A stretch of 64,000 nucleotides of DNA from Ceratobasidium sp. AG-K (taxonomy: Eukaryota > Basidiomycota > Agaricomycetes > Cantharellales > Ceratobasidiaceae), in contig JAWNGF010000002.1 of NCBI GenBank assembly GCA_037039685.1, positions 4,092,001 to 4,156,000 on the forward strand, in the 5' to 3' direction. Below, piece after piece: positions 1,449 to 51,759 of the stretch (within the stretch, counting starts at the first letter, position 1; each line of letters begins with the position of its first letter). The position numbers were made by a program, and so were the translations under genes. The notes under the pieces are model-generated. The model was not told where the DNA came from. It searched no databases and saw only the letters and a list, made by a program, of their open reading frames with translations.

Positions 1449-2471
1449 ATGCCCAATGCCTCCTTCACTGAACCCATCACCCCTCAACAGGCTCAGGCTT
1501 TGTCACTCTATTACAGAGATGTGTTTGGGGCACTTAGGCCCTGCTACCAGTCTTGGCCCACCTATGCTGTCATTTCTCCTTCAATCCTCAAGTGGGATCC
1601 TAGAGATCCTGAATTCCATTATAGACACTCTGATCAGCGGTTTGCTCCTGGGACTATCCCCTCAGCAGATACTCCATACACTGAATACTTCAGGCTCAAG
1701 AGCAAATTTGTTTGCAGCCTTGTGGATGCTTGTAAGCAGGTCAGGAAACTTGTTGGCCCATATTGCAACACAAATCATTACCTTATTGAATATGGGCCAT
1801 TCTCCTTGCTCTATACTCCCTTCTTTGAAGCAGCTAATTGTTATCCTAAGGAGCCTCACAACATCTTTGACATTGGTTATTTCCTTGGGCCTTACCCCTC
1901 ACTTCAAGTGCTTGCTGACCATGTCCACTTAGCCCAACTCTGGGGCCTTGGAATGATTGTAGCTCTCCATTGCCTAGCCCTTCATGATGGTATTTCCTTT
2001 GATGAACTGCACATCCACTTGCCCAACTTTCCCATTCATCAAGTTGTACTTGGGTGCAAAGCTCTGAGGGAGAAGCAGAAAAAAGCGCATGAATTTGCTC
2101 TGGATTGTGGTCTGTCTGGGGAGCCACTTGCACCTTGCTATTCCCTAGACAGCACTGATGCAATTTTATTAGTGCCTTTACCCTCTCCAGTCTGCTCTTT
2201 ATCTCCTTCACCAGAACCTCTTCAGTATCCACCTAGCTCTCCTCCTGATTCACCCAAGTATTGCCCTACTTCTCCTTCCTGGATTGCCAGCAGTCCCCCA
2301 GCTCCTTCTGTGTCATCTGAGGAGTTTGTCTATTGTCCTACTACACTGTTTAGGATGGTTGATTATGAATCTTCCCATGAAGAAGATGGCTTTGAGATCA
2401 GGGTAGAGGAGGATGAGGAAGCTGCCCAAAGGCTATTGCACTCTCCAGCCTTATTCTTTATTACAGCTTAA
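1449..2471 (+). CDS. Terminal ORF of a family V-like retroelement, 340 aa, function unknown
   Basis: An uninterrupted ORF starting at an ATG (CCCAATGCC) and ending 20 nt before a polypurine run and an LTR start. I do not recognise the family. Residues 1 to about 230 look globular, rich in aromatics and Cys/His, with a hydrophobic helix near 165-180 (LWGLGMIVALHCLAL) but no signal peptide. Residues about 250-290 are Pro/Ser-rich and include YPPSSPPDSP and KYCPTSPSW, which resemble degenerate RNA polymerase II CTD heptads. The C terminus is acidic (EEDEEAAQ). Its position between coding region and 3' LTR matches ORF3 of families I, II and IV, although I see no sequence similarity to those. A captured host gene is the alternative. 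Being open over 1 kb among decayed elements suggests recent coding function. Confidence 0.6.
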   Translation: MPNASFTEPITPQQAQALSLYYRDVFGALRPCYQSWPTYAVISPSILKWDPRDPEFHYRHSDQRFAPGTIPSADTPYTEYFRLKSKFVCSLVDACKQVRKLVGPYCNTNHYLIEYGPFSLLYTPFFEAANCYPKEPHNIFDIGYFLGPYPSLQVLADHVHLAQLWGLGMIVALHCLALHDGISFDELHIHLPNFPIHQVVLGCKALREKQKKAHEFALDCGLSGEPLAPCYSLDSTDAILLVPLPSPVCSLSPSPEPLQYPPSSPPDSPKYCPTSPSWIASSPPAPSVSSEEFVYCPTTLFRMVDYESSHEEDGFEIRVEEDEEAAQRLLHSPALFFITA

Positions 2472-2825: not shown

Positions 2826-3281
2826 TGTCGTGAGCCAGCTCACTCCATCGGACTTGCCCTGCGTCTCGCCCGCCTGTCTTCCCTTTTTGTGTTACGTTCC
2901 CGTTTCTGTTTGCCGCGTTGCCACCTTCTTGTGGTTATTCTGTTACTTTGTGTAACGCGGCTGTGCTTTGTACGAGTCATGTCTGTTCATACAGCATGAC
3001 TCACATGGACACTCCTGACTGGTTGACTGTTGTGACTCTTGTGGCTGCGTCCTGTATGACTCGGCCTGGTCTTGAATATATATAGAGGACCAACAAGCCT
3101 GGTAACCCCAGCTTGTTTTGTCTCGTCAAAACATCCCTTTGAGTGACACTCAGAACCACCCCTACCCTCAAGAGCCTACAGACACTTAAGTGTGTTGCGG
3201 TTCAAGAGGTCACTTAGGTCTTAGTGCCGTCCACTCCCCGTCGCGGTTTGTCTCATAGCCACCAAGAAGAAGCTTACGACA
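2826..3281 (+). repeat. 5' LTR of I-a
   Basis: 456 bp, bounded by TGTCGTGAGC and CTTACGACA. It contains a bZIP-type TGACTCA at 2997-3003, TATATATA at 3077-3084, a putative transcript start at 3110, and a perfect 12-bp palindrome ACACTTAAGTGT at 3182-3193 that is kept in every family I LTR here. Its partner is 9599-10054. Confidence 0.95.
3077..3121 (+). promoter_or_regulatory. Core promoter and self-primer source (I-a)
   Basis: TATATATA at 3077 is followed 33 nt later by AGCTTGTTTTGT (3110-3121). This 12-mer is the exact reverse complement of the PBS at 3284-3295, so the RNA 5' end is predicted at or near 3110. The preceding CTGGTAACCCC block is shared with other family I LTRs and, with changes, with family IV. 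Confidence 0.65.
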
Positions 3282-3283
3282 TT

Positions 3284-3295
3284 ACAAAACAAGCT
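3284..3295 (+). promoter_or_regulatory. Primer-binding site complementary to the element's own 5' RNA end
   Basis: ACAAAACAAGCT begins 2 nt after the 5' LTR and pairs with 3110-3121 over 12 of 12 bases. No initiator-Met tRNA complement is present. Self-priming is known for the Tf1/sushi group; its use here is inferred. Confidence 0.7.
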
Positions 3296-3311
3296 TAACA
3301 AACATACAAGC

Positions 3312-5312
3312 ATGTCTATTCAAGAAGACGGAGGGTCACGTCCCTCGTCCACTAGATCAACACGAAGAGGACCCAGTCGGGCAGCAAGGCCTACTGGATC
3401 GCTAAATGAGCAAGACATCGCACAAGCTCAAGCGGGAGGTCCGGCCCGATCACGCTCTCAGAGCCAATCTTCAATGCCAGGAGCTTTCGGCATCTCTGAC
3501 ATGACAATAGTACAAGAGGAAGAACCCACCATCACGAGTAGAGAACCAGGAGATCTCACAAATGACCCCACTCCAGCTGTAATTCGCATTTCAACTGGAA
3601 GTCCAGGGCCATCACGTCCCTTATGGCCACTAGGGACTAGGAGGCAGTTCTTTTCTCCCCAGCCCGAGGCTCATGGGGGCGTGTCGCTTGTCCCCATTAG
3701 ACCTCCTCCTACACCACACATTCCCAATGTACCTACAGTCCCTCAAATTGGAGGAACCATCACCAACGCAGGACCAATCCCAACGGCTTCCCAGCCAGTC
3801 ACACCAGCGATTCCAGCACCGCCCTATGTCCCACAGGGTTACTCTGGGCAGTCGTCCCTGGTACCACAAGGCGCCGGTGATCCGGGAAGCTCAAGTTCAA
3901 GTTCCAGCGCCAGCGGCAGAACTGTAATCAGTAATTTAGACGACCTGGACGACCTCCTAGAAGGAAGACACAACGCCACCCTTAGGGTTATAGACGGAAT
4001 GAGGGTCACCATGGATCAAAGGCTTAGTGGCTTAGAACAAGCCACACAAGTCCTAGCAAACAACCAACAAATCTTTAACGACTCCATCAACACCCTACAA
4101 GGCACCCTAACAGACATTCTGAACTCGGCAAGAAATGGCGAACACAATTCCTTTTTAGTCGGACAAGATGTGACACGCCTTTGGAATGAGGTTGCCAACA
4201 CTCAAGGACTAGTGAACAATGTACGCGAAGAACTCAACACTACCAGACAAGGGCAACTTGAATGGAACGAAGCAGTAACTCAAGGACTGGAAAACTTACG
4301 ACAAGAGGGAACCTCCTTCACTACCAAAATCACGGAAGTTCAAGAAGCTATCAACAATATGCGAGAAGAAATCGACAAAACTTCCCTGCACGGGATCCCA
4401 TCTAGGCGATCAAATTCTCCACCACATCCAGACGCAGAATCTACCAGGATCGACGAATTAGAGTTAAGAATACAACGACTGTCCGAGAACCCAAACATCG
4501 GTAGCAGTCCATGACGTCCCAAAGTAACTCGCCCAGAAGCCTTTGACGGAAAGAAAGGGGAAGGTGCTGAAATGTTCATCACACAAATGGAAAGCTACTT
4601 CGTGCGACTAGGCGATCAATATGCTTCCAATGAAGAAAGGATTCGCGAAGCCCTAGCAAACTTCAAATCCGAGAACAAAGCTGCCACTCACTGGGCACAA
4701 GTTCTCTTACGATCGCTCAACCAAAGGGAAAATAACCAAAACCTTGTCTCATGGGAAAGTTTCAAGGCACACTTCATGGAACAGTTCAGCGACCCAAACA
4801 AAAAATCTAAAGCCGAAGCAGATATCCGAAAATGCAAGCAGAACAACTCTGTAGCAAACTATGCCTCGGAATTCCGATATCTTCTGGTGGACGTGAACTG
4901 GGGACAAGAAGCTCTGATCAACCAGTTCAAGGAGGGATTAAAGTCAGAAGTCAAGACTGAACTGGCTCGCTTCGAATTGACCCTGATCAATGAAGATGGG
5001 ACAGAACGAGAACTTTCCCTTGACCGGTGGATCTCAATCGCAATCTCTATCGACCAGAAATTGCAACAAATCAAGACCTCGACAGGAAAGAAGACCACCC
5101 AACCGACCGCTAGTGGACAGTCCTCTACAAAACGGCTGCCTGACAAAATATACAAAGCAAGAATAGCAACCAACCGCTGCCTGAAGTGCGGACAGGAAGG
5201 ACACCGTTCATTCAAATGCCCATCCAAGGAATGGATAACGACGGAACCTAGTGTTAAAGGAAGGGAAGCAACAATCATAGAAGACTCGGGAAAAGAAGGG
5301 GTCTCCCTCTAA
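3312..5312 (+). pseudogene. gag: gag of I-a (one nonsense codon)
   Basis: A 667-codon frame from ATG at 3312 to TAA at 5310, broken once by TGA at 4512-4514 where I-b has an Arg codon (CpG to TpG type change). The N-terminal 200 residues are Pro/Ser-rich and probably disordered, with a poly-Ser run near residue 197. A long region with spaced hydrophobics and NNQQ motifs (about 210-390) is probably coiled coil. The capsid-like retrotransposon gag domain follows (about 410-590). A CCHC zinc knuckle (CLKCGQEGHRSFKC) lies near 620-635. The product would form the particle shell and bind RNA. The gag of I-c is the intact relative (660 aa). The end of gag overlaps pol in the -1 frame. This stop is the only clear gag/pol lesion in the element. 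Confidence 0.9.
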
Positions 5313-5329
5313 CTGTGTGTGGAGAGACC
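5288..5329 (+). promoter_or_regulatory. Programmed -1 frameshift signal (GGGAAAA plus hairpin)
   Basis: Gag codons read TCG GGA AAA, so the heptamer G-GGA-AAA at 5288-5294 has the X-XXY-YYZ phase. A 5-nt spacer leads to a stem GGTCTC (5300-5305) pairing with GAGACC (5324-5329). The gag TAA lies in the loop. Slipping back one base enters the pol frame, which is open from there. The hairpin is identical in I-b, I-c, I-e and I-f. Confidence 0.75.
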
Positions 5330-8300
5330 AAGAAACCGGCAACGGAAACAATGTACTTTAGAGCGACAAATGAATCTACCATTGTTTACGCGAACGTTAC
5401 CGGAATCACAGAACCTATCCCAACCCTCATTGATTCTGGAGCATCGAAGAACTTCCTGGACATTTCATGGGCTCGATCCAACAACATTCCGCTCATAGAA
5501 CTCTCCACTCCTAGAAGAGTAATTGGTATCCAAGGGAAAGAACTCTCTCACCAAATTCGTTTCAAAGCAAAGCTAGAACTGGAAGTGGAGGGAAGAGCCT
5601 TCAAACAAATCTTCTTCGCTATGCCCACTGGAGAAACTAAACTCATCCTAGGATTGGAATGGTTAGAAGAATCAAACCCTGTCATCGATTGGAAAACAAA
5701 GCACATATCATGGCGGGCAGAAGCCATTCAAGCAAGGACAGCCTCAATAGACGACCTACCCGAGGAATTCAAGGAATTTGCCGACGTCTTTAGCGAAGAA
5801 AAATTCAAGAGAATCCCAGATCACCGCCCATACGACTGTGCCATCGACTTCAAAGAAGGAGCTGAGCTCCCGAAACCAGCCAGACCTATCCCACTCTCTC
5901 CAGCAGAATCAATTGCACTGAGAGAATACTTGGATGAAGAAATAGCAGCGGGAAAAATTCGACCAAGCAAATCACCCATTGCATCACCTTGCTTCTTTGT
6001 CAAAAAGCCGATCGATCCCAAGAATCCAGGGGCAGTTCGGCAATTACGACTTGTTCAAGATCTTAGAGGAGTAAACGCCATTACGAAGGACGACAGATTC
6101 CCAATGCCCCTAATGGAAGACCTCTTGGATAAAATCAAGGACGCAAAAATCTTCTCCAAGATCGATTTACGCATGGGTTTCAACAATATCAGGATCAAGG
6201 AAGGAGACGAATGGAAGACAGCCTTCAGAACAAAAGAAGGACTGTTCGAATATGTTGTCATGCCTTTTGGACTAAAAAACGCGCCCGCCATATTCCAAAG
6301 ATATATGAATCACATCTTCCATGATCTCATCGACGTATGTGTCATAGTATATATCGACGACATCTTAGTCTTCTCTAAAAACAGAAGTCAACATACCGTG
6401 GATGTCAGGAAAGTGCTAAAAATCTTACTGGAGGAAAACCTTTTCGCAAAGCTTCCAAAATGCGAATTCTTTGTCACCAAATTGACATATACTGGACTTG
6501 GAATCAGCGATTCGGGCATCTCAATGGAGGAAGAAAAGGTCAAGGCAATAAAGGAGTGGAAGGAACCAAGAACACTCAAGCAAGTCCAAGCATTCCTAGG
6601 ATTCGCAAACTTCTACCGAAGATTTGTACCGAATTTTAGCCGATTAGCAAAACCCCTGACATCCTTAACAAGAAAAGAGAACAAATGGGAATGGGGAAGC
6701 GATCAACAGGAAGCTTTTGAAGCCCTAAAGACGGAAATCAGCAAGGAGCCCACACTACGCCATCCAAACCCGGACAAACCCTTCTTCTTGGAAACAGACG
6801 CAAGTGGAGTAGCAATGGGAGCAATCCTGTCGCAAAGGCAAGATGATGGCTACCTACACCCTATTGCTTTTCTTTCAAAATCTTTCAATGAGGCTCAGCT
6901 CAACTACGACGTCCACGATAAGGAACTTATGGCGATCATAGAATCTTTAACACATTGGAGGCTTTACCTCGAAGGAACAAAGGAACCTATTACCATCTAC
7001 ACCGATCATAGGAACTTACAGTTCTGGAAGGAAGCAAGAACTTTCAACCGCCGACACGCAAGATGGCACCAATTGCTTGCTTCCTATAACTTTGACATCA
7101 TATATCGGCCTGGAATCCTGTCATCAAAACCGGACCTGTTGTCAAGACGATCAGACCATGAAGATATCCCGACACCTGAACAAGTTATGATATCTGCCAA
7201 AAGGTTCAAGGGATTTATGGGTCAAGTTGACACAAACATCATAGAAACTATCAAAGAGGCTCAGGAAACAGATGAAGGACTGGCACGAATCAAAGAAATC
7301 TGCAAGTCAAGAGAATCGTTACCAAAAACCCTACAACACAGCGCAAAAGACTATGATTTCAAGGAAGGACTTTTATGGTTTAAGGGAAGGATCTACGTGC
7401 CGGAGGATAAGGAATCCAGACTAGCCGTCATACGAGCTCATCACGATTCAAAAATTGCAGGACATCAAGGACAGGCTAGAACACTGGAACTAATATCAAG
7501 AAGATACTTCTGGCCAGGAATGAAGCAAAGCACAAACAGATATGTGGAATCATGCGAGACCTGCCAACGAACAAAGGGATCGAAGTCCATAGTCCCGGTC
7601 AAGCCTCTGGAGATTCCAAAAGGACCATGGGAAGACATAGCATTTGACTTTGTGGTGAAGTTGCCAAAATCCAGGGGGTCAGATAGCATCTTAGTAGTGG
7701 TGGACCAATTCTCAAGAATGGCGCACTTCATACCCTGCAGAGAATCTCACACGGCGAGCGACCTCGCAAATCTCTTCATCACAAATGTTTGGAAGTTGCA
7801 CGGTTTTCCAAAAAGCACTATCTCAGACCGAGGAACTACTTTCAATTCTAAACTTATGAAAGCCATTTATGAGAAGATTGGAACTAGCCCAGGGTTCAGC
7901 ACTGCCTACCACCCCCAAACAGATGGAATAACGGAAAGGATCAACCAATGGATGGAAGGCTGGCTGCGATCGTTCGTCAACTACCGGCAGGATGACTGGG
8001 CGGACTTATTACCAATTGCGGAGTTCAGCTATAATCTACAGAAGCACCGCGTAACAGGTAGTTCCCCTTTCGAAATTGTCTACGGGAGGGAACCACTGTG
8101 GAACATATCTGCAGAAGAATCAACAGTTCCTGAAGCAAACAACATCACAGGAAAATGGCGTAAAATCCACGACGAAGCAATTGCATCAATGGAAACCCAA
8201 AGGCTTCCAGAAGAGGAACCAAAGAATGAATACCAAGAAGGAGATCTAGTGTGGCTGCTGGGAAAGAACATTCAAACAAAAAGACCGTCAAAGAAACTGG

Positions 8301-9229
8301 ACAACAAAAAGCACGGGCCGTTTGTTGTAAAACGACAGATAGGGACACACGCTTACGAACTTGATCTGCCAGCAACAAGGAGGGTGCATCCTGTTTTCCA
8401 CATCGAGTTGCTCAGCCCTTACAAAGGAGACACTGAATTCAGCCGTAACCAACCCCAACCACCGCCGATCATAACAGAAGAAGGAGAGGAAGAATACGAA
8501 GTAGAGAAGATTTTGGACTGGAAAGAGACAAAGGACGGTCTTTTTTACAGGGTCAGATGGAAGGGCTATGGAAGTGAAGAAGACACAGAACAAAGGGCGG
8601 AAGATTTTGGTCACCTTTCAAAGATCATCAAGGATCTTCTACGCCGACACCCCGAGGCTCCCACGCCATCTAACTACACTCCAGGGAGGATAAAAGGGAG
8701 AGGGGGCGAAACCAGTAGTATCACTTGCAAAACTTGCTACTACTCCAAACTTCACTCCGCTCTCAACTCTCTAAATCTTTCCTGCTCTCAAAAATGCCTG
8801 CCGTCTCCCGCTCCACTATCGTCAACAACCTCACCCGCGTCCTGGATGGACCAGCGTTCGCTACGGCACGAATCCTTGACGCCGGAGCCGCGCTCTACGT
8901 CTTCAAAAGGTCCCAGCAAAGCTCAGGGAGAATGCACTTCAGGGCGTCGGACGACGTTCTCCACTCAGACTTGGGTGAATTCCAGTGGGTCGGCAAAAAA
9001 TGGCCGACAAAAATGCAACTCGCAAGAAAAGACATCTTCGTCTGCCAAGGATGCGCGGCCTTCCAAGTGTCAGAGGTGGTCCTGCTATCCACCCACATGC
9101 TCGGAGTCGTCGAATGGGGACAAGAAGGGGCATACTCAAGCGAGTGGGTACCAGGGTACGACGGAAGGCAACCGACGTTGCGACCACGATGGAACGATGC
9201 CTGGGACGCCAACTACGAAAGGGACCTGA
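5294..9229 (+). CDS. pol: Pol polyprotein of I-a (PR-RT-RH-IN-chromodomain)
   Basis: Open for about 1,310 codons. There is no ATG at its head; expression as Gag-Pol by -1 slippage at 5288 is inferred. Positions count from 5315. Protease has LIDSGAS near residue 40. RT has the FGLKNAP region and catalytic YIDD at 346-349 (6350-6361). RNase H has ETDASG near 493 and YTDHRNL near 565. Integrase has an HHCC finger (HH near 710, CETC near 747) and D, D, E in FDFVVKL, ISDRGT and ERINQW (about 778, 838, 875). A chromodomain with EEYEVEKI and RWKGY (about 1058-1112) keeps the three aromatic positions known to bind methylated H3K9 in HP1. The last about 145 codons overlap ORF3 in another frame and are Ser/Thr-rich; the stop position differs in other copies, so this tail is probably incidental. 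Confidence 0.93.
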   Translation, partial: RRGLPLTVCGETKKPATETMYFRATNESTIVYANVTGITEPIPTLIDSGASKNFLDISWARSNNIPLIELSTPRRVIGIQGKELSHQIRFKAKLELEVEGRAFKQIFFAMPTGETKLILGLEWLEESNPVIDWKTKHISWRAEAIQARTASIDDLPEEFKEFADVFSEEKFKRIPDHRPYDCAIDFKEGAELPKPARPIPLSPAESIALREYLDEEIAAGKIRPSKSPIASPCFFVKKPIDPKNPGAVRQLRLVQDLRGVNAITKDDRFPMPLMEDLLDKIKDAKIFSKIDLRMGFNNIRIKEGDEWKTAFRTKEGLFEYVVMPFGLKNAPAIFQRYMNHIFHDLIDVCVIVYIDDILVFSKNRSQHTVDVRKVLKILLEENLFAKLPKCEFFVTKLTYTGLGISDSGISMEEEKVKAIKEWKEPRTLKQVQAFLGFANFYRRFVPNFSRLAKPLTSLTRKENKWEWGSDQQEAFEALKTEISKEPTLRHPNPDKPFFLETDASGVAMGAILSQRQDDGYLHPIAFLSKSFNEAQLNYDVHDKELMAIIESLTHWRLYLEGTKEPITIYTDHRNLQFWKEARTFNRRHARWHQLLASYNFDIIYRPGILSSKPDLLSRRSDHEDIPTPEQVMISAKRFKGFMGQVDTNIIETIKEAQETDEGLARIKEICKSRESLPKTLQHSAKDYDFKEGLLWFKGRIYVPEDKESRLAVIRAHHDSKIAGHQGQARTLELISRRYFWPGMKQSTNRYVESCETCQRTKGSKSIVPVKPLEIPKGPWEDIAFDFVVKLPKSRGSDSILVVVDQFSRMAHFIPCRESHTASDLANLFITNVWKLHGFPKSTISDRGTTFNSKLMKAIYEKIGTSPGFSTAYHPQTDGITERINQWMEGWLRSFVNYRQDDWADLLPIAEFSYNLQKHRVTGSSPFEIVYGREPLWNISAEESTVPEANNITGKWRKIHDEAIASMETQRLPEEEPKNEYQEGDLVWLLGKNIQTKRPSKKLDNKKHGPFVVKRQIGTHAYELDLPATRRVHPVFHIELLSPYKGDTEFSRNQPQPPPIITEEGEEEYEVEKILDWKETKDGLFYRVRWKGYGSEEDTEQRAEDFGHLSKIIKDLLRRHPEAPTPSNYTPGRIKGRGGETSSITCKTCYYSKLHSALNSLNLSCSQKCLPSPAPLSSTTSPASWMDQRSLRHESLTPEPRSTSSKGPSKAQGECTSGRRTTFSTQTWVNSSGSAKNGRQKCNSQEKTSSSAKDARPSKCQRWSCYPPTCSESSNGDKKGHTQASGYQGTTEGNRRCDHDGTMPGTPTTKGT
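8690..8697 (+). promoter_or_regulatory. TATA-like box for ORF3 (I-a)
   Basis: ATAAAAGG lies exactly 104 nt before the ORF3 ATG. The same box at the same 104-nt distance occurs in I-b (39121), I-c (50891), I-d (22041) and I-e (57963). A CT-rich stretch precedes the ATG. It also encodes part of a conserved Ile-Lys-Gly in the pol tail, so conservation may be partly protein-driven. Confidence 0.45.
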
Positions 9230-9558
9230 GCGACTGGAAGCTGGAGAGGGGAAGGTACCAGAAGGAGAAGTTCGAGTGGGCGCCAAACTGGTGGAAGTGG
9301 GAGGAAGTGGACGTGTCAGCATGGAAGGAGACGGAGCCGGACGTGCGACAATGGGACAAGGAGTTCGTGGAGGCTCGGGAAAGGGTTTTGGACTGGTCCA
9401 AGGCGGACTGGACGAAGGAGGAGACTTGGGAAGAATGGGAGAAGTTCTCGGACGAACCGGGAAATACTACCTTCAACCCGATCGACCTTACCTTGGATGA
9501 CGAGGAGGGGTTGGAGGAATATATGCTGAAGAAGGAAAAGGACTGTGCAGTACAATAG
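8794..9558 (+). CDS. ORF3, accessory protein of family I, 254 aa, function unknown
   Basis: Intact ORF in a different frame from pol, starting MPAVS at an ATG in a good context (CAAAAATGCC) and ending just before the polypurine tract. I know of no matching family. Residues 1-120 contain a basic/aromatic segment ending in VCQGC, which recurs as HCQGC in the family IV ORF3 and hints at a small metal-binding fold. Residues about 130-225 are exceptionally rich in Trp and charged residues (WDxxY, DWSKADW, EEWEKF), likely helical. Residues about 228-242 read FNPIDLTLDDEEG, matching a SUMO-interacting motif (hydrophobic I-D-L-T then acidic). There is no signal peptide or membrane segment, so it is not envelope-like. 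The same 254-codon length is intact in I-b and I-c although their gag or pol carry stops. Confidence 0.8.
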   Translation: MPAVSRSTIVNNLTRVLDGPAFATARILDAGAALYVFKRSQQSSGRMHFRASDDVLHSDLGEFQWVGKKWPTKMQLARKDIFVCQGCAAFQVSEVVLLSTHMLGVVEWGQEGAYSSEWVPGYDGRQPTLRPRWNDAWDANYERDLSDWKLERGRYQKEKFEWAPNWWKWEEVDVSAWKETEPDVRQWDKEFVEARERVLDWSKADWTKEETWEEWEKFSDEPGNTTFNPIDLTLDDEEGLEEYMLKKEKDCAVQ

Positions 9559-9586
9559 GTCCGTTCAGGTCCCCCAAACGGACTCT

Positions 9587-9595
9587 AAGGGGGAG
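9587..9595 (+). promoter_or_regulatory. Polypurine tract (I-a)
   Basis: AAGGGGGAG, followed by TAA and the 3' LTR at 9599. It is the expected plus-strand primer. The same layout ends every family I copy here. Confidence 0.85.
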
Positions 9596-9598
9596 TAA

Positions 9599-10054
9599 TG
9601 TCGTGAGCCAGCTCACTCCATCGGACTCGCCCTGCGTCTCGCCCGCCTGTCTTCCCTTTTTGTGTTACGTTCCCGTTTCTGTTTGCCGCATTGCCACCTT
9701 CTTGTGGTTATTCTGTTACTTTGTGTAACGCGGCTGTGCTTTGTACGAGTCATGTCTGTTCATACAGCATGACTCACATGGACACTCCTGACTGGTTGAC
9801 TGTTGTGACTCTTGTGGCTGCGTCCTGTATGACTCGGCCTGGTCTTGAATATATATAGAGGACCAACAAGCCTGGTAACCCCAGCTTGTTTTGTCTCGTC
9901 AAAACATCCCTTTGAGTGACACTCAGAACCACCCCTACCCTCAAGAGCCTACAGACACTTAAGTGTGTTGCGGTTCAAGAGGTCACTTAGGTCTTAGTGC
10001 CGTCCACTCCCCGTCGCGGTTTGTCTCATAGCCACCAAGAAGAAGCTTACGACA
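9599..10054 (+). repeat. 3' LTR of I-a
   Basis: 456 bp, the pair of 2826-3281. It ends CTTACGACA followed by the target duplication TTGGC. Two differences from the 5' copy were seen, both at CpG sites. Confidence 0.95.
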
Positions 10055-17000: not shown

Positions 17001-18067
17001 CGGCACATGCGCAATGTATCCAAGACAACCTGGACAAAGCTAAGGCTAGTTTGGCCCTGAGCAAAGAACGGGACAAGGAATATGCAGACAAAAGAAGGCA
17101 AGGAAATCCCTTTATCCTGGGCAATAAGGTTTGGCTAAGCCATGATCACATCACAACCAATTGGCCATCCTTGAAATTATCACATAAACAACTTGGCCCC
17201 TTCACTATCCTGGAAGCAGTAGGGAGGAATGCGTACAAACTACAACTCCCGCCTTCTACGACCATGCATCCAGTAATCAATGTATCACACCTAGCCAAAT
17301 ACAAGGAAGATGAAATTGAGGGCCGCCATGTGGATCCACCCCCACCAATCAAGACACCAGAAGGCAAAGAAGAATATGAGGTAGAACACATCCAAAGTTC
17401 CAAGTTGGAGAAAGGAATCCTGAAATATTTTGTCAAATGGAAGGGCTACACTGTGGAACATGACTCTTGGGAACCCTTGGAGAACCTTGGCAACGCATCA
17501 GAACTCATTAATGAGTTCCACAAGGAACATCCAGACGCCATCAAAGAAGTCCCCAGAGTTACCAGGAAGTGTTGCCATGAGGAAACAAGGGATGACTTGG
17601 CAGCCGATAACAAGGAAGAACAGCCCATTAGGCGCTCTAAGCATATAAAAGAGGCTGCTGGGATCCAAGTCCCTCATCAAAAAACTTTTACCTGCTCCCG
17701 TCCTATGCTTAAACCCTCAACTCCCACCTTACTTGTTGCACCATGTCCTCCCAACGCCAATCCACCAACTCAGTCATGGTCTGGGTCTACCACAACCTCT
17801 ACACCTGCTCGGCTGCCTTCAAGCGGTCCCTCAAAGTTGTACCCCCCCAGGAACAAGGCATGTACTGGCATCCCGGCATGCGCCAACGTTTCTACTTTAT
17901 TGTATCCGCGCTCTACTGGTCAGGAGAGGCCCCCAGGTTGTTCATTGGCCGCCCCCTTGTCCACTGGTGCAACTGGATTGGTTATGCTGCCGACAACATC
18001 CACAACGCCCTTGAAATTATGGACAGGTCTTGCAAGGTCCAGCTTGGAGGCAATCCATTTGAGATAA
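14064..18067 (+). pseudogene. pol: pol of family II, with TGA codons and one frameshift
   Basis: Protease MIDSGALGNFIN (near 14240); RT with MPFGLTNAPATFQ and intact YIDD (15180-15191); RNase H (ECDALDKATGA, VTDHQNL); integrase with HHNN...CNLCQRSK finger, then VDMIVKLP, VSDCGPTF and ERINQ; chromodomain EEYEVEHI...VKWKGYTVEHDSWEPLENL (17370-17500). TGA codons lie at 14664, 14892 and 15972, all at positions where Arg is expected. A one-base shift near 16475-16490 separates the two integrase parts (frame of 16026-16511 versus 16499-18067). RT metal-binding residues survive, but this copy cannot make full Pol. The open tail beyond 17743 overlaps ORF3. Confidence 0.88.
17644..17650 (+). promoter_or_regulatory. 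TATA box upstream of the family II ORF3
   Basis: TATAAAA within GCATATAAAAGAGG, 99 nt before the ORF3 ATG and followed by a CT-rich stretch. It is a stronger TATA than in family I, at nearly the same distance. Confidence 0.5.
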
Positions 18068-18216
18068 TCAACCTCACAGTTGACTTGGAGGTTAGGGAGG
18101 AGACTGTAATTGATTTGACGGATGACAAGGAGGATTATGGGGTGTGGAAGGGGACGGGGTCAGCTGAGGACCCTTTTGTAATTGATGATTCTGAGGAGTT
18201 TGTGCTGGTGGAGTAA
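17743..18216 (+). CDS. ORF3 of family II, 157 aa, function unknown
   Basis: Starts at an ATG (GCACCATGTCC) in a frame different from pol and ends 25 nt before the 3' LTR. Residues 1-95 are rich in Trp and Tyr (VWVYHNLY, YWHPGMRQRFYF, VHWCNWIGY), with no recognised domain. The C terminus is strongly acidic and contains ETVIDLTDDKED near 118-130, a close match to the canonical SUMO-interacting motif; a second hydrophobic-acidic segment (FVIDDSEEFVLVE) ends the protein. Family I ORF3 has NPIDLT plus acidic residues at the equivalent place. No membrane segment or signal peptide is visible. Confidence 0.7.
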   Translation: MSSQRQSTNSVMVWVYHNLYTCSAAFKRSLKVVPPQEQGMYWHPGMRQRFYFIVSALYWSGEAPRLFIGRPLVHWCNWIGYAADNIHNALEIMDRSCKVQLGGNPFEIINLTVDLEVREETVIDLTDDKEDYGVWKGTGSAEDPFVIDDSEEFVLVE

Positions 18217-21700: not shown

Positions 21701-22358
21701 TCACCCTTACAAGCTTGATCTGTCACCAACTATGAAGAAGTACCCCGTTTTTCATATTGACCTCCTAAGTCAGTACAAGGTTGACAAGGAATTCAATTGG
21801 AACCAACCACGTCCTCTGCCAATCATCACCAAAGAAGGGAACAAAGAATATGAAGTGGAAAAAATGGTCAACTGGGAGATGACAAAGGAAGGGGTCTTCT
21901 ATGGGATCAGATGGAAAGGATATGGAGAAGAAGATGATACAGAACAACAAGTGGAGGATGTGGGCCACCTAACTGAGATAATACAGAAGTTTCTGAAGAA
22001 ACACCCTGAAGCACCAACACCAGCAAATTTCAAAGGAAAGATAAAAGGCCAAGGGGTGAGAGAGTGGGAAACCATCTGCAAAACTTGCAACTACTCTGAA
22101 ATCCACTCATTGCTCAACTCTCTCAACCTTTTTTGCGCTTCACCATGCCTGCTGTTTCCTGCTCCACCATTGCCAATAACCTCATCCGCATCCTCAACGG
22201 ACCGGTGTTTGCTATGGCAAGAATCCTTGACGCTGGGGCTGCCCTCTATGTCTTCAAGAGGTCACGGCAAGGCCCGGGCAGAATGCAATTTCAGGTGTCA
22301 GACAACATACTCCACTCAGACCTGGGGGTGTTCCAATGGGTTGGCAAAAAATGGCTGA
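18721..22358 (+). pseudogene. pol: pol remnant of I-d
   Basis: One main reading frame with stops at about 18937 (TGA), 19036 (TAA), 19297 (TGA) and 20307 (TGA), and compensating frameshifts near 20110 and 20195-20215, the latter at a run of nine A. The RT catalytic motif is YINN at 19239-19250 instead of YIDD, both changes being G to A after C. The RNase H motif is ETNASG instead of ETDASG. The integrase finger and most of the core are recognisable, followed by a chromodomain near 21850-22010. Removing the solo LTR and one copy of TGCAA keeps the frame. It is inactive on several independent grounds. Confidence 0.88.
21043..21502 (-). repeat. Family I solo LTR, minus strand
   Basis: 460 bp with 5-bp duplications TGCAA at 21038-21042 and 21503-21507. 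It carries the ACACTTAAGTGT palindrome, the bZIP-type TGASTCA site and the TATA box. Its 5' terminus is TGCCGTGAGC instead of TGTCGTGAGC. It was inserted after the integrase core of I-d. Confidence 0.92.
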
Positions 22359-22879
22359 CAAGAATGCAACTTCAAAGGAAGGGCATATCTGTCTGCCAAG
22401 GATGCGCTGCATTCCAGGTCTTGGAGGTTGTCCTCCTGTCCATGCATATGCTTGGAGTTTTGGAATGGGGAATGGAAAGAGCATACTTGAGTGAATGGGT
22501 ACCAGGAGCCAAAGGAAGACTGCCAACACTCTGACCCAGGTGGAATGACACCTGGGACGCCAACTTTGAAAAGGACCTGAGTGACTGGAGAATGGAGAGG
22601 GGTAGATACCAGAGGGAGAATTTTGAGTGGTCACCGTATTGGTGGAGGAAAGAGGGGACAGACGTGCAACAATGGGATGAAGAGTTTGTGGAAACCCAGA
22701 AGAGGGTGTTAGACTGGTCCAAGGCTGACTGGACAAGGGAGGAAACCTGGGAAGAATGGGAGAAATTCTTGGACAAACCAGGTAACACTGTGTTCAATCC
22801 CATTGATCTGACCTTGGAGGAGGACAAGGGACTGGAGGATTATGTGCGGTGTAAGGAGAAGGACTGCACATTACAGTGA
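22145..22879 (+). pseudogene. ORF3 of I-d (one nonsense codon)
   Basis: Starts MPAVS at an ATG, 104 nt after ATAAAAGG at 22041, and keeps the frame to 22879 except for a TGA at 22532-22534 in an Arg position. The VCQGC motif, Trp-rich helical part and NPIDLTLEEDKG SIM-like segment are all preserved. This conservation in an otherwise decayed element is notable, but it may only reflect shared ancestry. Confidence 0.8.
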
Positions 22880-38700: not shown

Positions 38701-39570
38701 ATTCAAACAAAAAGACCCTCAAAAAAGCTGGATAACAAGAAACACGGGCCGTTTATTGTGAAACGAAAGATAGGGTCACACGCTTATGAACTCACTTTGC
38801 TGGCAACAATGAGGGTGCACCCTGTTTTCCACATCGATTTGCTCAGCCCTTACAAAGAAGATACAGAATTCAGCCGAAACCAACCCTGACCACCGCCGAT
38901 CATAACAGAAGAAGGAGAAGAGGAATACGAAGTAGAAAAAATCGTGGATTGGAAGAAAACTAAGGATGGGCTCTTCTACAGGGTCAGATGGAAGGGTTAT
39001 GGGGAAGAAGAAGACACGGAACAAAGGGCAGAAGACTTTGGCCACCTGTCCAAGATCATCAAGGACTTGCTATGGCGACACCCCAAGGCTCCAACACCTT
39101 CTAACTATGTTCCGAAAAAGATAAAAGGAAAGGGGAGCACAATTAGTAGCGACATCTGCAAGACTTGCAACTACTCCAAGCTTCATTCCTCGCTCAACTC
39201 TCTAAATCTTCTCTGCTCTCCACAATGCCTGCCGTCTCCCGCCCCACCATCGTCAACAACCTCACCCGCGTCCTGGACGGACCAGCGTTTGCTACGGCAA
39301 GAATCCTTGACGCTGGAGCCGCGCTCTACATCTTCAAGAGGTCCCAGCAAGGCTCAGGAAGAATGCACTTTAGGGCGTCAGACGACGTTCTCCACTCAGA
39401 CTTGGGCAAATTCCAGTGGGTCGGCAAAAAATGGCCAACAAAAATGCAGCTCGCAAGAAAAGACATCTTTGTCTGTCGAGGATGCGCAGCCTTTCAAGTG
39501 TCGGAGGTGGTCCTACTGTCCACCCACATGCTCAGAGTCGTTGAATGGGGACAAGAAGGTGCATGCTTGA
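35725..39570 (+). pseudogene. pol: pol of I-b (two nonsense codons)
   Basis: All domains in one frame: protease LIDSGASKNF, RT with intact YIDD, RNase H ETDASGVAMGA, integrase HHCC finger and DDE core, chromodomain. TGA at 36256-36258 lies where I-a has CGC (Arg), between protease and RT. TGA at 38887-38889 lies before the chromodomain, where I-a has CAA; I-f has TGA at the same site, so the ancestral codon was probably CGA. The tail to 39570 overlaps ORF3. Confidence 0.9.
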
Positions 39571-39989
39571 GCGAGTGGGTACCAGGGTACGACGGGAGGC
39601 AACCAATGCTGCGACCTCGGTGGAACGACGCCTGGGACGCCAACTACGAGAGGGACCTGAGCGACTGGAAGATGGAAAGGGGAAGGTACCAGAAGGAGAA
39701 GTTTGAATGGGCGCCAAACTGGTGGAAGTGGGAGGAAACAGACATGTCAGCATGGAAGGAGACGGAGCCAGACGTGCGACAATGGGACAAGGAGTTTGTG
39801 GAGGCTCAGGAAAGGGTTTTGGACTGGTCCAAGGCCGACTGGACAAAAGAGGAGACATGGGAAGAATGGGAGAAGTTCTCGGACAAACCGGGGAACACCG
39901 CGTTCAATCCCATCGACCTGACCTTGGAGGAAGATGAAGGGCTTGAGGAATATATGCTGAGGAAGGGAAAGGACTGCGCGGTGCAGTAA
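39225..39989 (+). CDS. ORF3 of I-b, intact, 254 aa
   Basis: Same length and start (MPAVS) as in I-a, 104 nt after ATAAAAGG at 39121. It keeps the cysteine pair (VCRGC instead of VCQGC), the Trp-rich helical part and the SIM-like NPIDLTLEEDEG. It is uninterrupted although gag and pol of this copy carry three stops in total. Function unknown. Confidence 0.8.
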   Translation: MPAVSRPTIVNNLTRVLDGPAFATARILDAGAALYIFKRSQQGSGRMHFRASDDVLHSDLGKFQWVGKKWPTKMQLARKDIFVCRGCAAFQVSEVVLLSTHMLRVVEWGQEGACLSEWVPGYDGRQPMLRPRWNDAWDANYERDLSDWKMERGRYQKEKFEWAPNWWKWEETDMSAWKETEPDVRQWDKEFVEAQERVLDWSKADWTKEETWEEWEKFSDKPGNTAFNPIDLTLEEDEGLEEYMLRKGKDCAVQ

Positions 39990-47239: not shown

Positions 47240-47652
47240 TGTCCCAACTTGGGTCAATTAGGTATATAAAGGTTAAGGGGTTTGACTTAGACAAGTCTTA
47301 GAACCCAAGGAGTAGTGATAGTAAGGGGATTTGATTGAGCAAGTCCTAGTGGAGAGGAGGTCAAGCCTTGTTGTTATCCGGCTTGACCTCTGGGTTTATA
47401 TACATGAGGGATCAAGGCCACGTCATCATCTATCAGTGTGGGAAAGCCGAGTACAACCGATGACAAGCAAGATAAGAGATATGACTCAACATTCTGGAAG
47501 TTCCGGAAGCATCACCAATATCAAAGGAAAAGACAAATACATCACCTGATACAAGTTAAGCGCCAGAGGACATTTGTACCAAAAAAGGAAAGTGTTCGGA
47601 AAAAAAGATATAAAATCAGAATAAAATGTCTGAGCTTAGTCAGCTCATGACA
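47240..47652 (-). repeat. 5' LTR of family III
   Basis: 413 bp. Own-sense TATATAAA starts at 47402; predicted RNA start 47369; a TGASTCA site at 47482-47488 lies upstream. It pairs with 40704-41116. Confidence 0.94.
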
Positions 47653-48375: not shown

Positions 48376-51300
48376 CATGGGTTTCAACAATATCAGAATT
48401 AGGGAAGGGGACGAATGGAAGACAGCCTTCAGAACCAAGGAAGGCCTGTTTGAATACATTGTCATGCCATTTGGACTAAAAAATGCACCCGCCATATTCC
48501 AAAGATACATGAACCACATCTTCCACGACCTTATCAACGTATGTGTCATAGTATACATTGACGACATCCTAGTCTTCTCTAAAAACAGAAGTCAACATAC
48601 TATAGACATCAGGAAGGTGCTGAAGATCTTACTGGATGAAAACCTATTTGCAAAACTCCCGAAATGCGAATTCTTTGTCACCAAACTTACATATACCGGA
48701 GTTGGGATCAGTGATTCTGGCATCTCTATGGAGGAAGAAAAGGTCAAGGCAATAAAGGAATGGAAGGAACCAAAAACAGTCAAGCAAGTTCAGGCATTCC
48801 TAGGATTTGCAAACTTCTACCAAAGATTTGTACCAAATTTTAGCCATTTAGCAAAACCCTTAACAACCCTTACAAGAAAGGATAACAAATGGAAATGGGA
48901 GAAGGATCAACAGGAGGCTTTTGATGCCCTGAAAGCAGAAATTAGCAAGGAACCCACACTATGCAATCCTGACCCTGAGAAACCCTTTTTTCTGGAGACA
49001 GATGCAAGCGGAGTAGCAATGGGGGCAATTCTGTCTCAAAGGCAAGATGATGGCTACCTACACCCTATAGTGTTTCTATTGAAATCCTTCAATGAGGCTC
49101 AGCTCAACTATGACGTCCATGACAAGGAACTTATGGCAATCATAGAATCACTAACACATTGGAGGTTATACCTTGAGGGAACAAAGGATCCAATCACTAT
49201 CTACACCAATCACAGGAACCTACAGTTCTGGAAAGAAGCAAGAATGTTCAACCGTCAACACGCAAGATGGCATCAACTACTGGCTTCCTACAACTTTGAT
49301 ATCATATACTGTCCTGGAATCCTTTTGTCTAAGCCGGACCTATTGTCAAGACAATCTGACCATGAGGATATTCCCACACCAGAACAAATTATGATATCCG
49401 CTGAAAAATTTAAAGGGTTTATGGGGCAGATGAACACAGACATTATGGCAACTATCAAGGAGGCACAAGAAACTGATGAAGGACTGGCAAAAATAAAGGA
49501 AATCTGCAAATCAAGGGAAATGCTACCAAGAACCCTGCAACACAGCGCAAAAGATTACAACTTCAAGGAGGGACTAATATGGTACAAAGGGAAAATTTAC
49601 GTCCCAGAAGATAAGGAAGCCAGACTGTCCATCATGCAACTACACCACAACTCAAGGATTGCAGGGCATCAGGGACAAGCCAGGACATTGGAACTAATAG
49701 CAAGAAGATACTTCTGGCCAGGGATGAAGCAGAGCATAAACAGATACATGGAATCCTGTGAGACCTGCCAACAAACAAGGGGATCAAAGTCAATAGTACC
49801 AATCAAACCTCTAGAAATTCCAAAAGGTCCCTGGGAAGACATAGCATTCGACTTTGTAGTGAAATTGCCAAAATCCAGAGGGTCAGACAGCATCATGGTA
49901 GTGGTAGACCGGTTCTCAAGAATGGCGCATTTCATACCCTGCAAAGAATCTCACATGGCAAGCAAGCTGGCAAATCTATTTATCACAAATGTTTGGAAAC
50001 TACACGGCTTTCCAAAAAGCACAATCTCAGACCAAGGGACTACTTTCAATTCTAAACTTATGAAGGCCGTTTACAAGAGAATTGGAACTAGCCCAAGCTT
50101 CAGCACTGCCTACCACCCCCAGACAGATGGAGTAACAGAAAGAATCAACCAATGGATGGAAGGCTGGCTACGTTCCTTTGTCAACTACCAGCAAGATGAT
50201 TGGGCGGACTTGTTACCTATTGCAGAATTCAGTTATAATCTGCAGAAGCACCATGTAACAGGGAGTTCCCCTTTTGCAATTGTCTACAGCAGGGAACCAT
50301 TGTGGAACATCTCATCAGACGAAACAACAGTTCCTGAAGCAAACACCATCATGGAAAAATGGCGTTGCATCCACGACAAAGCTATTGCATCAATGGAAAA
50401 CCAAAGGCTCCCAGAGGAAGAACCAAAAAATGAGTACCAGGAAGGAGATCTAGTATGGCTGTTGGGAAGAAACATCCAAACAAAAAGACCCTCAAAGAAA
50501 CTGGATAACAAGAAGCATGGACCATTTGTTGTGCAGTGGAAGATAGGATCACATGCTTATGAGCTCACTCTGCCAGCAACAATGAGGGTGCACCCTGTTT
50601 TCCACATCGACTTGCTCAGCCCTTACATAGAAGACACAGAGTTCAAACAAAACCAACCCCAACCACCGCCAATAATTACTGAAGGAGAAGAAGAATATGA
50701 AGTAGAAAAGATTTTGGACTGGAAGGAGACAAAGGATGGTCTTTTTTACAGGGTCAGATGGAAGGGTTATGGAAGTGAAGAAGACACAGAACAAAGGGCG
50801 GAAGATTTTGGTCACCTTTCTAAGATCATCAAGGACCTTCTACACCGACACCCTGAGGCTCCCACGCCATCTAACTACGTTCCAGGAAAGATAAAAGGCA
50901 GAGGGGGCGCAACTGGTAGTGGTACTTGCAAAACTTGCTCAAGATCCAACTCGCTCTACACACTCCACACTCTAAATCTCTTTTGCTCCTCACAATGCCC
51001 GCCGTCACCCTCTCTACAATTACCAACAACCTCATCCGCATTCTTGAAGGGCTGGCCTTCCAAACAGCGTGCATCCTGGACTCAGGAGTGGCCCTCTACG
51101 TATTCAAACGGTCTCAACAAGGCCCCGGGCGCATGCAATACCATGCGTTGGACCACGTGCTCCACTCAGACCTGGGGGAATTCCAATGGGTGGGAAAAAA
51201 ATGGCCAACACAGATGCAATTGCAGTGGAAGGACATATTTGTCTGCAGAGGATGCACCGCCTTTCAAGTCTCTGAGGTTGTGCTGTTGTCCACCCACATG

Positions 51301-51382
51301 CTCGGGGTGGTGGAATGGGGCCAAGAAGGCGCCTACAGCAGCGAATGGGTCCCAGGATATGAAGGGAGGCCACCGTCCCTGA
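48376..51382 (+). pseudogene. pol: pol of I-c, 3' part (RT to chromodomain), open
   Basis: Resumes exactly where 26253 stopped (CATGG duplication, then GTTTCAACAATATC). From here the frame is open for about 1,000 codons: RT with intact YIDD near 48560, RNase H ETDASGVAMGA, integrase HHCC finger and DDE core, chromodomain EEYEVEKI...RWKGYGSEEDTEQ near 50690-50860. The final about 130 codons overlap ORF3. It is listed as a pseudogene because the 5' half is separated and mutated. Confidence 0.9.
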
Positions 51383-51759
51383 GACCCCAATGGAACAACG
51401 CCTGGGATGCAAACTTTGAGAAGGACCTGGTGGACTGGAGGATGGAGAGGGGGTGCTACCAAAGGGAGAAGTTTGAGTGGAAACCATACTGGTGGCAGGA
51501 GAAGGATGCAGATGTGTTGCAATGGAAGGAGGTAGAGGGGGATGTGTGCACATGGGATAAGGACTTTGTGGAGCTGCAGGAGAGGGTCTTGGACTGGTCA
51601 AAGGCGGACTGGACAAAGGAGGAGACATGGGAAGAGTGGGAGAAGTTCTCAGACAAACCAGGTAATACTGTGTTCAACCCAATTGACTTGACCATTGAGG
51701 ATGATGAGGGGCTTGAAGAGCACTTGCTAGCCAAGATCAAGGATTGCAAGATCCAATGA
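50995..51759 (+). CDS. ORF3 of I-c, intact, 254 aa
   Basis: Starts MPAVTLS at an ATG 104 nt after ATAAAAGG (50891). It is identical in length to ORF3 of I-a and I-b despite many substitutions. It keeps the cysteine pair (VCRGC), the Trp-rich helical segment and NPIDLTIEDDEG, followed by an acidic end. It is uninterrupted in the oldest well-preserved copy, next to a pol that is broken upstream. Function unknown. Confidence 0.8.
   Translation: MPAVTLSTITNNLIRILEGLAFQTACILDSGVALYVFKRSQQGPGRMQYHALDHVLHSDLGEFQWVGKKWPTQMQLQWKDIFVCRGCTAFQVSEVVLLSTHMLGVVEWGQEGAYSSEWVPGYEGRPPSLRPQWNNAWDANFEKDLVDWRMERGCYQREKFEWKPYWWQEKDADVLQWKEVEGDVCTWDKDFVELQERVLDWSKADWTKEETWEEWEKFSDKPGNTVFNPIDLTIEDDEGLEEHLLAKIKDCKIQ

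Follow-up and report, generated by a model that had tools for sequence, protein, structure and literature searches.

Tf1 of fission yeast, which we take to be a self-priming element with a chromodomain integrase, has to our knowledge no gene behind pol. Elsewhere, extra genes in that place are a known kind. Additional ORFs behind gag and pol occur in plant LTR retrotransposons, where the sense-oriented ones (aORF-3S) are discussed in the accessible text as env-like, some with transmembrane domains (PMC7264820). In the available text of a survey of chromodomain elements of fungi and a spikemoss (Novikova et al. 2010, PMC2864245), most full-length elements have one or two ORFs and some are drawn with an unexplained 'add. 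ORF'; its carriers, place and sequence are not given in that text, and we liken it to the genes reported here by description only. Bdelloid rotifer LTR retrotransposons likewise carry different, unrelated ORF3s behind gag and pol, and those named in the open part of the report include a GDSL esterase/lipase, a DEDDy exonuclease and env (PMC5408684). Cer1 of C. elegans, as far as the accessible account goes, likewise has a non-env accessory ORF in env position, CERV, with a cysteine-rich region; it is made from a spliced mRNA that shares gag exons, is required for the export of genomic RNA from the nucleus, and is again likened to ORF3 by description (PMC10309623).

The genes reported here come from a stretch of 64,000 nucleotides (the window) of the genome of the fungus Ceratobasidium sp. 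AG-K. They differ from plant aORF-3S in having no convincing transmembrane domain and, in two of their types, in ending with a tail of SUMO-interacting type; unlike the rotifer ORF3s, they match no known family. The accessible portions of the literature gave no account of these families, of several types in one genome, or of a shared tail motif. Titles and abstract openings, in a scope that left subscription papers mostly outside, held no SUMO-interacting motif in a retrotransposon ORF3, and the available text of PMC3248453, PMC5741268, PMC9673352 and PMC3395311 has nothing on such an ORF.

Element I-a has the gene order gag-pol-ORF3-LTR, all in sense orientation, and its features are as follows.

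2826-10054, plus strand: element I-a, whole, bounded by an LTR pair and a 5-bp flanking repeat, TTGGC
2826..3281, plus strand: 5' LTR of I-a, TG...CA, 456 bp
3284..3294, plus strand: primer-binding site (PBS) of self-priming type, the 11 bases ACAAAACAAGC, just past the 5' LTR
3312..5312, plus strand: gag frame, 400 aa, a stop, then 246 aa with Retrotrans_gag and a zinc knuckle
5351..9229, plus strand: pol, with protease, RT, RNase H, integrase and chromodomain
8495..8629, plus strand: chromodomain of pol (Pfam PF00385, E 6.6e-8)
8734..8793, plus strand: pyrimidine-rich stretch, 60 nt, abutting the ORF3 ATG
8794..9558, plus strand: ORF3 of I-a, 254 aa
8863..9141, plus strand: core of ORF3 aligned with the family-IV ORF3, residues 24-116, with CxxC at residues 84-87
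9478..9507, plus strand: PIDLT-LDDEE motif with acidic flank, residues 229-238, SUMO-interacting type
9559..9594, plus strand: hairpin directly 3' of the ORF3 stop
9599..10054, plus strand: 3' LTR of I-a, 456 bp

The LTR pair shows 2 differences in 456 positions, and the gag frame has an in-frame stop at 4512-4514 in this copy. The chromodomain lies at the integrase end, as in a Tf1-type chromovirus. The PBS word ACAAAACAAGC has its complement, GCTTGTTTTGT, within the LTR at 3111-3121, a stretch that begins 34 nt past the TATA start at 3077; both words are also visible in I-b. I-a has the chromodomain integrase of Tf1, and its layout at 3077-3121 and 3284-3294 makes it a candidate for Tf1-type self-priming. 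I-a itself sits within the apparent LTR (2742-2825 and from 10055) of an element that carries an ORF of 340 aa.

A sequence-only reading of the window had described ORF3 as intact at 254 codons in I-a, I-b and I-c, nearly intact in I-d, and present in family II (157 aa) and, with one stop, in family IV. These frames were all recovered, I-a at 8794-9558 and the remainder, with the 340-aa ORF, as listed.

39225..39989, plus strand: ORF3 of I-b, 254 aa, PIDLT present
50995..51759, plus strand: ORF3 of I-c, 254 aa, PIDLT present
22145..22876, plus strand: ORF3 of I-d, 71% identical, interrupted by one in-frame stop and missing a short segment, PIDLT present
17743..18216, plus strand: ORF3 of family II, 157 aa
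26781..27917, minus strand: ORF3 of family IV, with one in-frame stop in the window copy
1449..2471, plus strand: 340-aa ORF, a candidate further ORF3 type

A translated search of the 53.6-Mb genome (17 contigs) put the gene well beyond chance. The best 149 of 777 type-I candidates, ranked by ORF3 similarity, all span residues 1-254, and 139 of these 149 are free of stops. A second sample consisted of 12 family-I copies from outside the ORF3 list, taken among at least 150 listed chromodomain matches (of 1445 candidates). Full-length ORF3 lies at the same offset in all 12 and is intact in 8; within this genome, ORF3 is not missing from most intact relatives. Among 32 family-I copies (30 fetched, with I-b and I-c) 29 are intact and the remaining three carry TGA at codon 85, a codon that reads CGA in 22 copies, CAA in 6, TGA in 3 and AGA in 1. 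TGA at codon 85 was also seen in one of the 12 chromodomain-chosen copies, and further changes from Arg to His, Cys or Gln were noted by eye. The decay of family I looks CpG-driven at the sequence level. ORF3 of I-a has the place of a sense additional ORF (aORF-3S) and is conserved in most copies, as such an ORF is. That it is an accessory gene we regard as virtually certain.

ORF3 overlaps the tail of pol instead of following it. The pol frame of I-a continues past the chromodomain, with no stop before ORF3, and runs into ORF3 in another frame (8640-9229). Its first stop lies 433 nt inside ORF3 in 23 of the 32 family-I copies and 322 nt inside in 20 of 30 family-II copies. We pooled dN/dS over 150 random pairs of the 29 intact family-I copies and derived a neutral expectation by moving the same substitutions to random sites with the same base and CpG context. 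The ratio for ORF3 was 0.095 against 0.67 expected under neutrality, and is thus not near 1 across copies. It was 0.106 in the part outside the pol overlap and 0.077 in the ORF3 frame within it; the pol frame of the overlap gave 2.04, so that the run-on tail of pol shows no conservation at the protein level. On the same value we rejected the idea that this frame holds a second gene under constraint within ORF3. The 450-nt pol stretch upstream of ORF3 gave 0.23 in family I, so that ORF3 is under stronger constraint than the adjoining stretch of pol tested. In 11 chromodomain-anchored copies (L098, with a 6-nt deletion, left out; stop codons skipped) the ratio was 0.106 against 0.67 over all 55 pairs; these copies were not chosen by ORF3, and the ranking by ORF3 similarity therefore does not explain the constraint.

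A tree of 43 family-I copies, the 32 and the 11 chromodomain-anchored ones with broken copies included, separates older from recent change. Relative to neutral, the ratio was 0.145 on internal and 0.257 on terminal branches, and stops stood at 0.016 of expectation on internal and 0.155 on terminal branches. This is the pattern of a gene required for replication, in copies that decay once inserted. Family-II ORF3 is constrained as well, with dN/dS of 0.28 against 0.72 in 27 intact copies of 30 close ones, and of 0.49 against 0.88 in 12 of 14 divergent copies, which were picked mainly among stop-free matches and lean to intact copies. A ratio of 0.87 for the upstream pol of family II was set aside, the stretch being unaligned across indels. 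We conclude that ORF3 is a true accessory gene, carried by Tf1-type chromoviruses that are putatively self-priming.

In the fetched copies, inspection by eye found no convincing slip site at which a -1 frameshift could join pol to ORF3, and no conserved AG as a splice acceptor before the ORF3 ATG. The 60 nt before the ATG are rich in pyrimidines, with mean C+T of 0.70 in 32 family-I copies and 0.71 in 30 family-II copies, and may be the leader of a separate mRNA. Behind ORF3, the hairpin at 9559-9594 has 94.3% of cells paired over 25 distinct but closely related rows and shows covariation at two of its pairs (G-C/A-U and U-A/C-G). None of 500 shuffles reaches its covariation score or its paired cells, but pairs that change on both sides number 2 against a shuffle mean of 1.6, which is no excess. 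The loop, UCCCCC, is C-rich and able to pair with the polypurine tract.

The ORF3s of the different families are not all related. The CQGC region was said to align between families I and IV, and profile comparison agrees: ORF3-I and ORF3-IV share a core around CQGC/CRGC (hhalign probability 85, E 6.6e-6, 86 columns). This is in keeping with the closer pol kinship of the two families, whose RT regions are 53.5% identical against 36.5-43.5% for the other five family pairs (one element each). Profile comparison detected no relation of ORF3-II to ORF3-I or ORF3-IV. At least 150 type-II and at least 151 type-IV genome matches were scored, fragments included. Of seven fetched ORF3-IV relatives, picked mainly among stop-free matches, five are open over 374-394 aa; in the alignment L108 (366 aa, more divergent) was kept and the frameshifted L106 dropped. 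The window copy of family III has no ORF3, nor room for one, because its 3' LTR (41116-40704, 97.6% identical to 47240-47652) starts about 10 bp past the pol stop. The 340-aa ORF was claimed to hold the same place as ORF3. It does end about 270 bp before the LTR-like start (about 2742) of the element hosting I-a; no pol is readable upstream of it within the window, but in one related copy a Pfam chromodomain (E 4.8e-9) lies some 1.1 kb ahead of the ORF. Since there are three good copies, one with a stop, and pN/pS is 0.50 (one pair), we treat this ORF as a candidate ORF3 type. We read the sequences as pointing to at least two independent acquisitions of an ORF3 in the same slot. The sequence-only reading spoke of an accessory protein of these chromoviruses; strong selection and the placement in 12 of 12 copies uphold the role, and the singular should read several, with at least two unrelated ORF3 families.

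Database searches add little about function. Pfam gave no match at E 0.1 for ORF3-I (I-a, I-c), ORF3-II or the 340-aa ORF; two weak matches for ORF3-IV (E 0.04-0.05), each to one member of the six scanned, were taken as chance. A PDB sequence search returned nothing for ORF3-I and one match each, at chance level, for ORF3-II (E 0.16) and ORF3-IV (E 0.28). AlphaFold on two ORF3 alignments reached mean pLDDT of only 39.6 and 34.4, and the models are therefore unusable. Scans of viral contigs found no ORF3 relative. Relatives of the ORF3 queries in the protein database numbered 2, 3 and 2, all metagenome contigs or records labelled Globodera pallida, and in one public record a chromodomain is followed by an ORF3-IV piece within one gene model. 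The records labelled G. pallida (P0010, P0011 and P0013) comprise ORF3-II relatives and the chromodomain with the ORF3-IV piece; they probably stem from fungal DNA that contaminates the nematode assembly.

An acidic tail with an IDLT motif closes the proteins of both type I and type II, which have no other detectable similarity. The sole stretch that hhalign aligns between the two profiles is PIDLTLDDEE with VIDLTDDKED (10 columns), at a probability of 2.9 and P 0.015, which is not significant by itself; by this comparison the likeness of the tails appears to be that of a shared motif, without homology. For scanning we used the pattern [PILVM][ILVM]DLT, which we take to be a stricter form of the SUMO-interacting motif (SIM). 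Of 43 family-I copies, 42 have the strict pattern and all 43 have it when D/N is allowed. At least one strict motif occurs in 30 of 39 family-II copies and at least one D/N motif in 38 of 39; with D/N allowed, 34 of the 39 copies match at the second position and 31 at the first, while the leucine of both is invariant (39/39). The ORF3-II of the window has one strict and one N-for-D motif of IDLT type and the end EEFVLV, an end shared by 30 of 39 family-II copies that could be another docking motif. Motif codons differ synonymously while the residues stay. The motif was noticed first and tested afterwards; under residue shuffling the strict form has a probability of 0.003 in I and 0.002 in II. 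Four strict motifs occur among the window's 43 ORFs that start with ATG and reach 150 aa or more (14,997 aa, counting overlapping ORFs). All four are in ORF3s, and they count as two independent events because I-a, I-b and I-c are kin.

A SIM is described, in the accessible text of PMC12751080, as a mostly hydrophobic four-residue core with an acidic flank. Judged by their letters, the tails of types I and II have such a short hydrophobic core and acidic flank, both conserved, and may be read as SIMs. The PIDL core of type I, with two aliphatic residues and proline only, is weaker than that of type II. The strict motif is absent from gag and pol of I-a and from the 340-aa ORF, and the aligned family-IV ORF3s show by eye no clear motif of this type; docking on SUMO is therefore not a universal role of ORF3.

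For types I and II, we rate docking on SUMO as having an even chance or slightly better. The explanation we favour overall, at about even weight, would be an accessory gene whose tail docks on SUMO-modified host proteins. Translation of ORF3 probably begins at its own ATG, on a shorter mRNA. The protein of types I and II consists of an N-terminal part and an acidic tail with one (I) or two (II) conserved motifs of SUMO-interacting type. The N-terminal part would bind a component of the element, whether capsid, integrase or RNA, and the tail would bind SUMO carried by host proteins of the nucleus. Next to the integrase chromodomain, the element would then have another means of holding on to SUMO-rich chromatin or nuclear bodies, which would aid nuclear retention and integration, or else blunt SUMO-dependent silencing. 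The SIMs of HIV integrase are reported, in the available portion of PMC6446281, to be needed for nuclear localisation, early replication steps and replication. Targeting, nuclear entry and silencing evasion had been put forward as guesses at the role of ORF3; the motif would suit targeting or silencing evasion alike, and does not decide between them.

The strongest competitor, somewhat unlikely in our estimate, is an RNA- or capsid-associated accessory protein acting in packaging or export of genomic RNA, with an IDLT tail that is incidental or serves a partner other than SUMO. ORF3-I and ORF3-IV do share the CxxC-containing core without a common tail, and CERV, in env position and with a cysteine-rich region, is needed in genomic RNA export according to the accessible text (PMC10309623). 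However, neither I nor II matched a Pfam family and IV has only the weak one-member matches, the five scanned proteins have a net charge of -9 to -17, an acidity atypical of RNA binders, and in type II few parts are as well conserved as the tail motif. Less probable again is an anti-silencing factor that ties up SUMO or SUMO-dependent heterochromatin factors, allowing new copies to escape repression. It draws on the same motifs as docking, which integration targeting accounts for equally, and ORF3-IV has no clear motif; yet SUMO is reported to favour silent chromatin across yeast, plants and animals (PMC8131101, accessible text), and the CpG-type decay at codon 85 suggests that the host may act on these elements.

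Two further explanations have very little left to commend them. The slot between pol and the 3' LTR is the env position, and in windows of 19 residues the highest hydropathy of I-a (1.61) and of the 340-aa ORF (1.58) comes near membrane values, as a degenerate envelope-like gene might show. The top window of I-a is marginal, though, and contains Q, S and E, those of I-c (1.43), II (0.93) and IV (0.73) are lower, and I and II match no family; the earlier view that ORF3 is not env for want of a membrane helix holds over these five proteins, and we consider an envelope origin highly improbable. That ORF3 is no gene, its frame being open only because pol's tail overlaps it or because of base composition, is more improbable still, to the point of being negligible: the pol frame is indeed open across those first 433 nt in most family-I copies, but within the overlap it is the ORF3 frame that is constrained and not the pol frame, and constraint persists outside it.

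An accessory gene with a SUMO-docking tail is thus the reading that we carry forward. At least 149 type-I copies were found in this genome, and at least two unrelated proteins occupy the slot. We suggest only tentatively, from the likeness of the tails, that unrelated accessory proteins in one slot may have converged on single or tandem SUMO-interacting tails. If so, they would form a class of retrotransposon-encoded SUMO adaptors beside the integrase chromodomain, choosing or opening chromatin. If the tails bind SUMO, an accessory gene of a mobile element would be tied to the host SUMO system, and how such elements find or survive heterochromatin would become testable by simple assays of binding and localisation.
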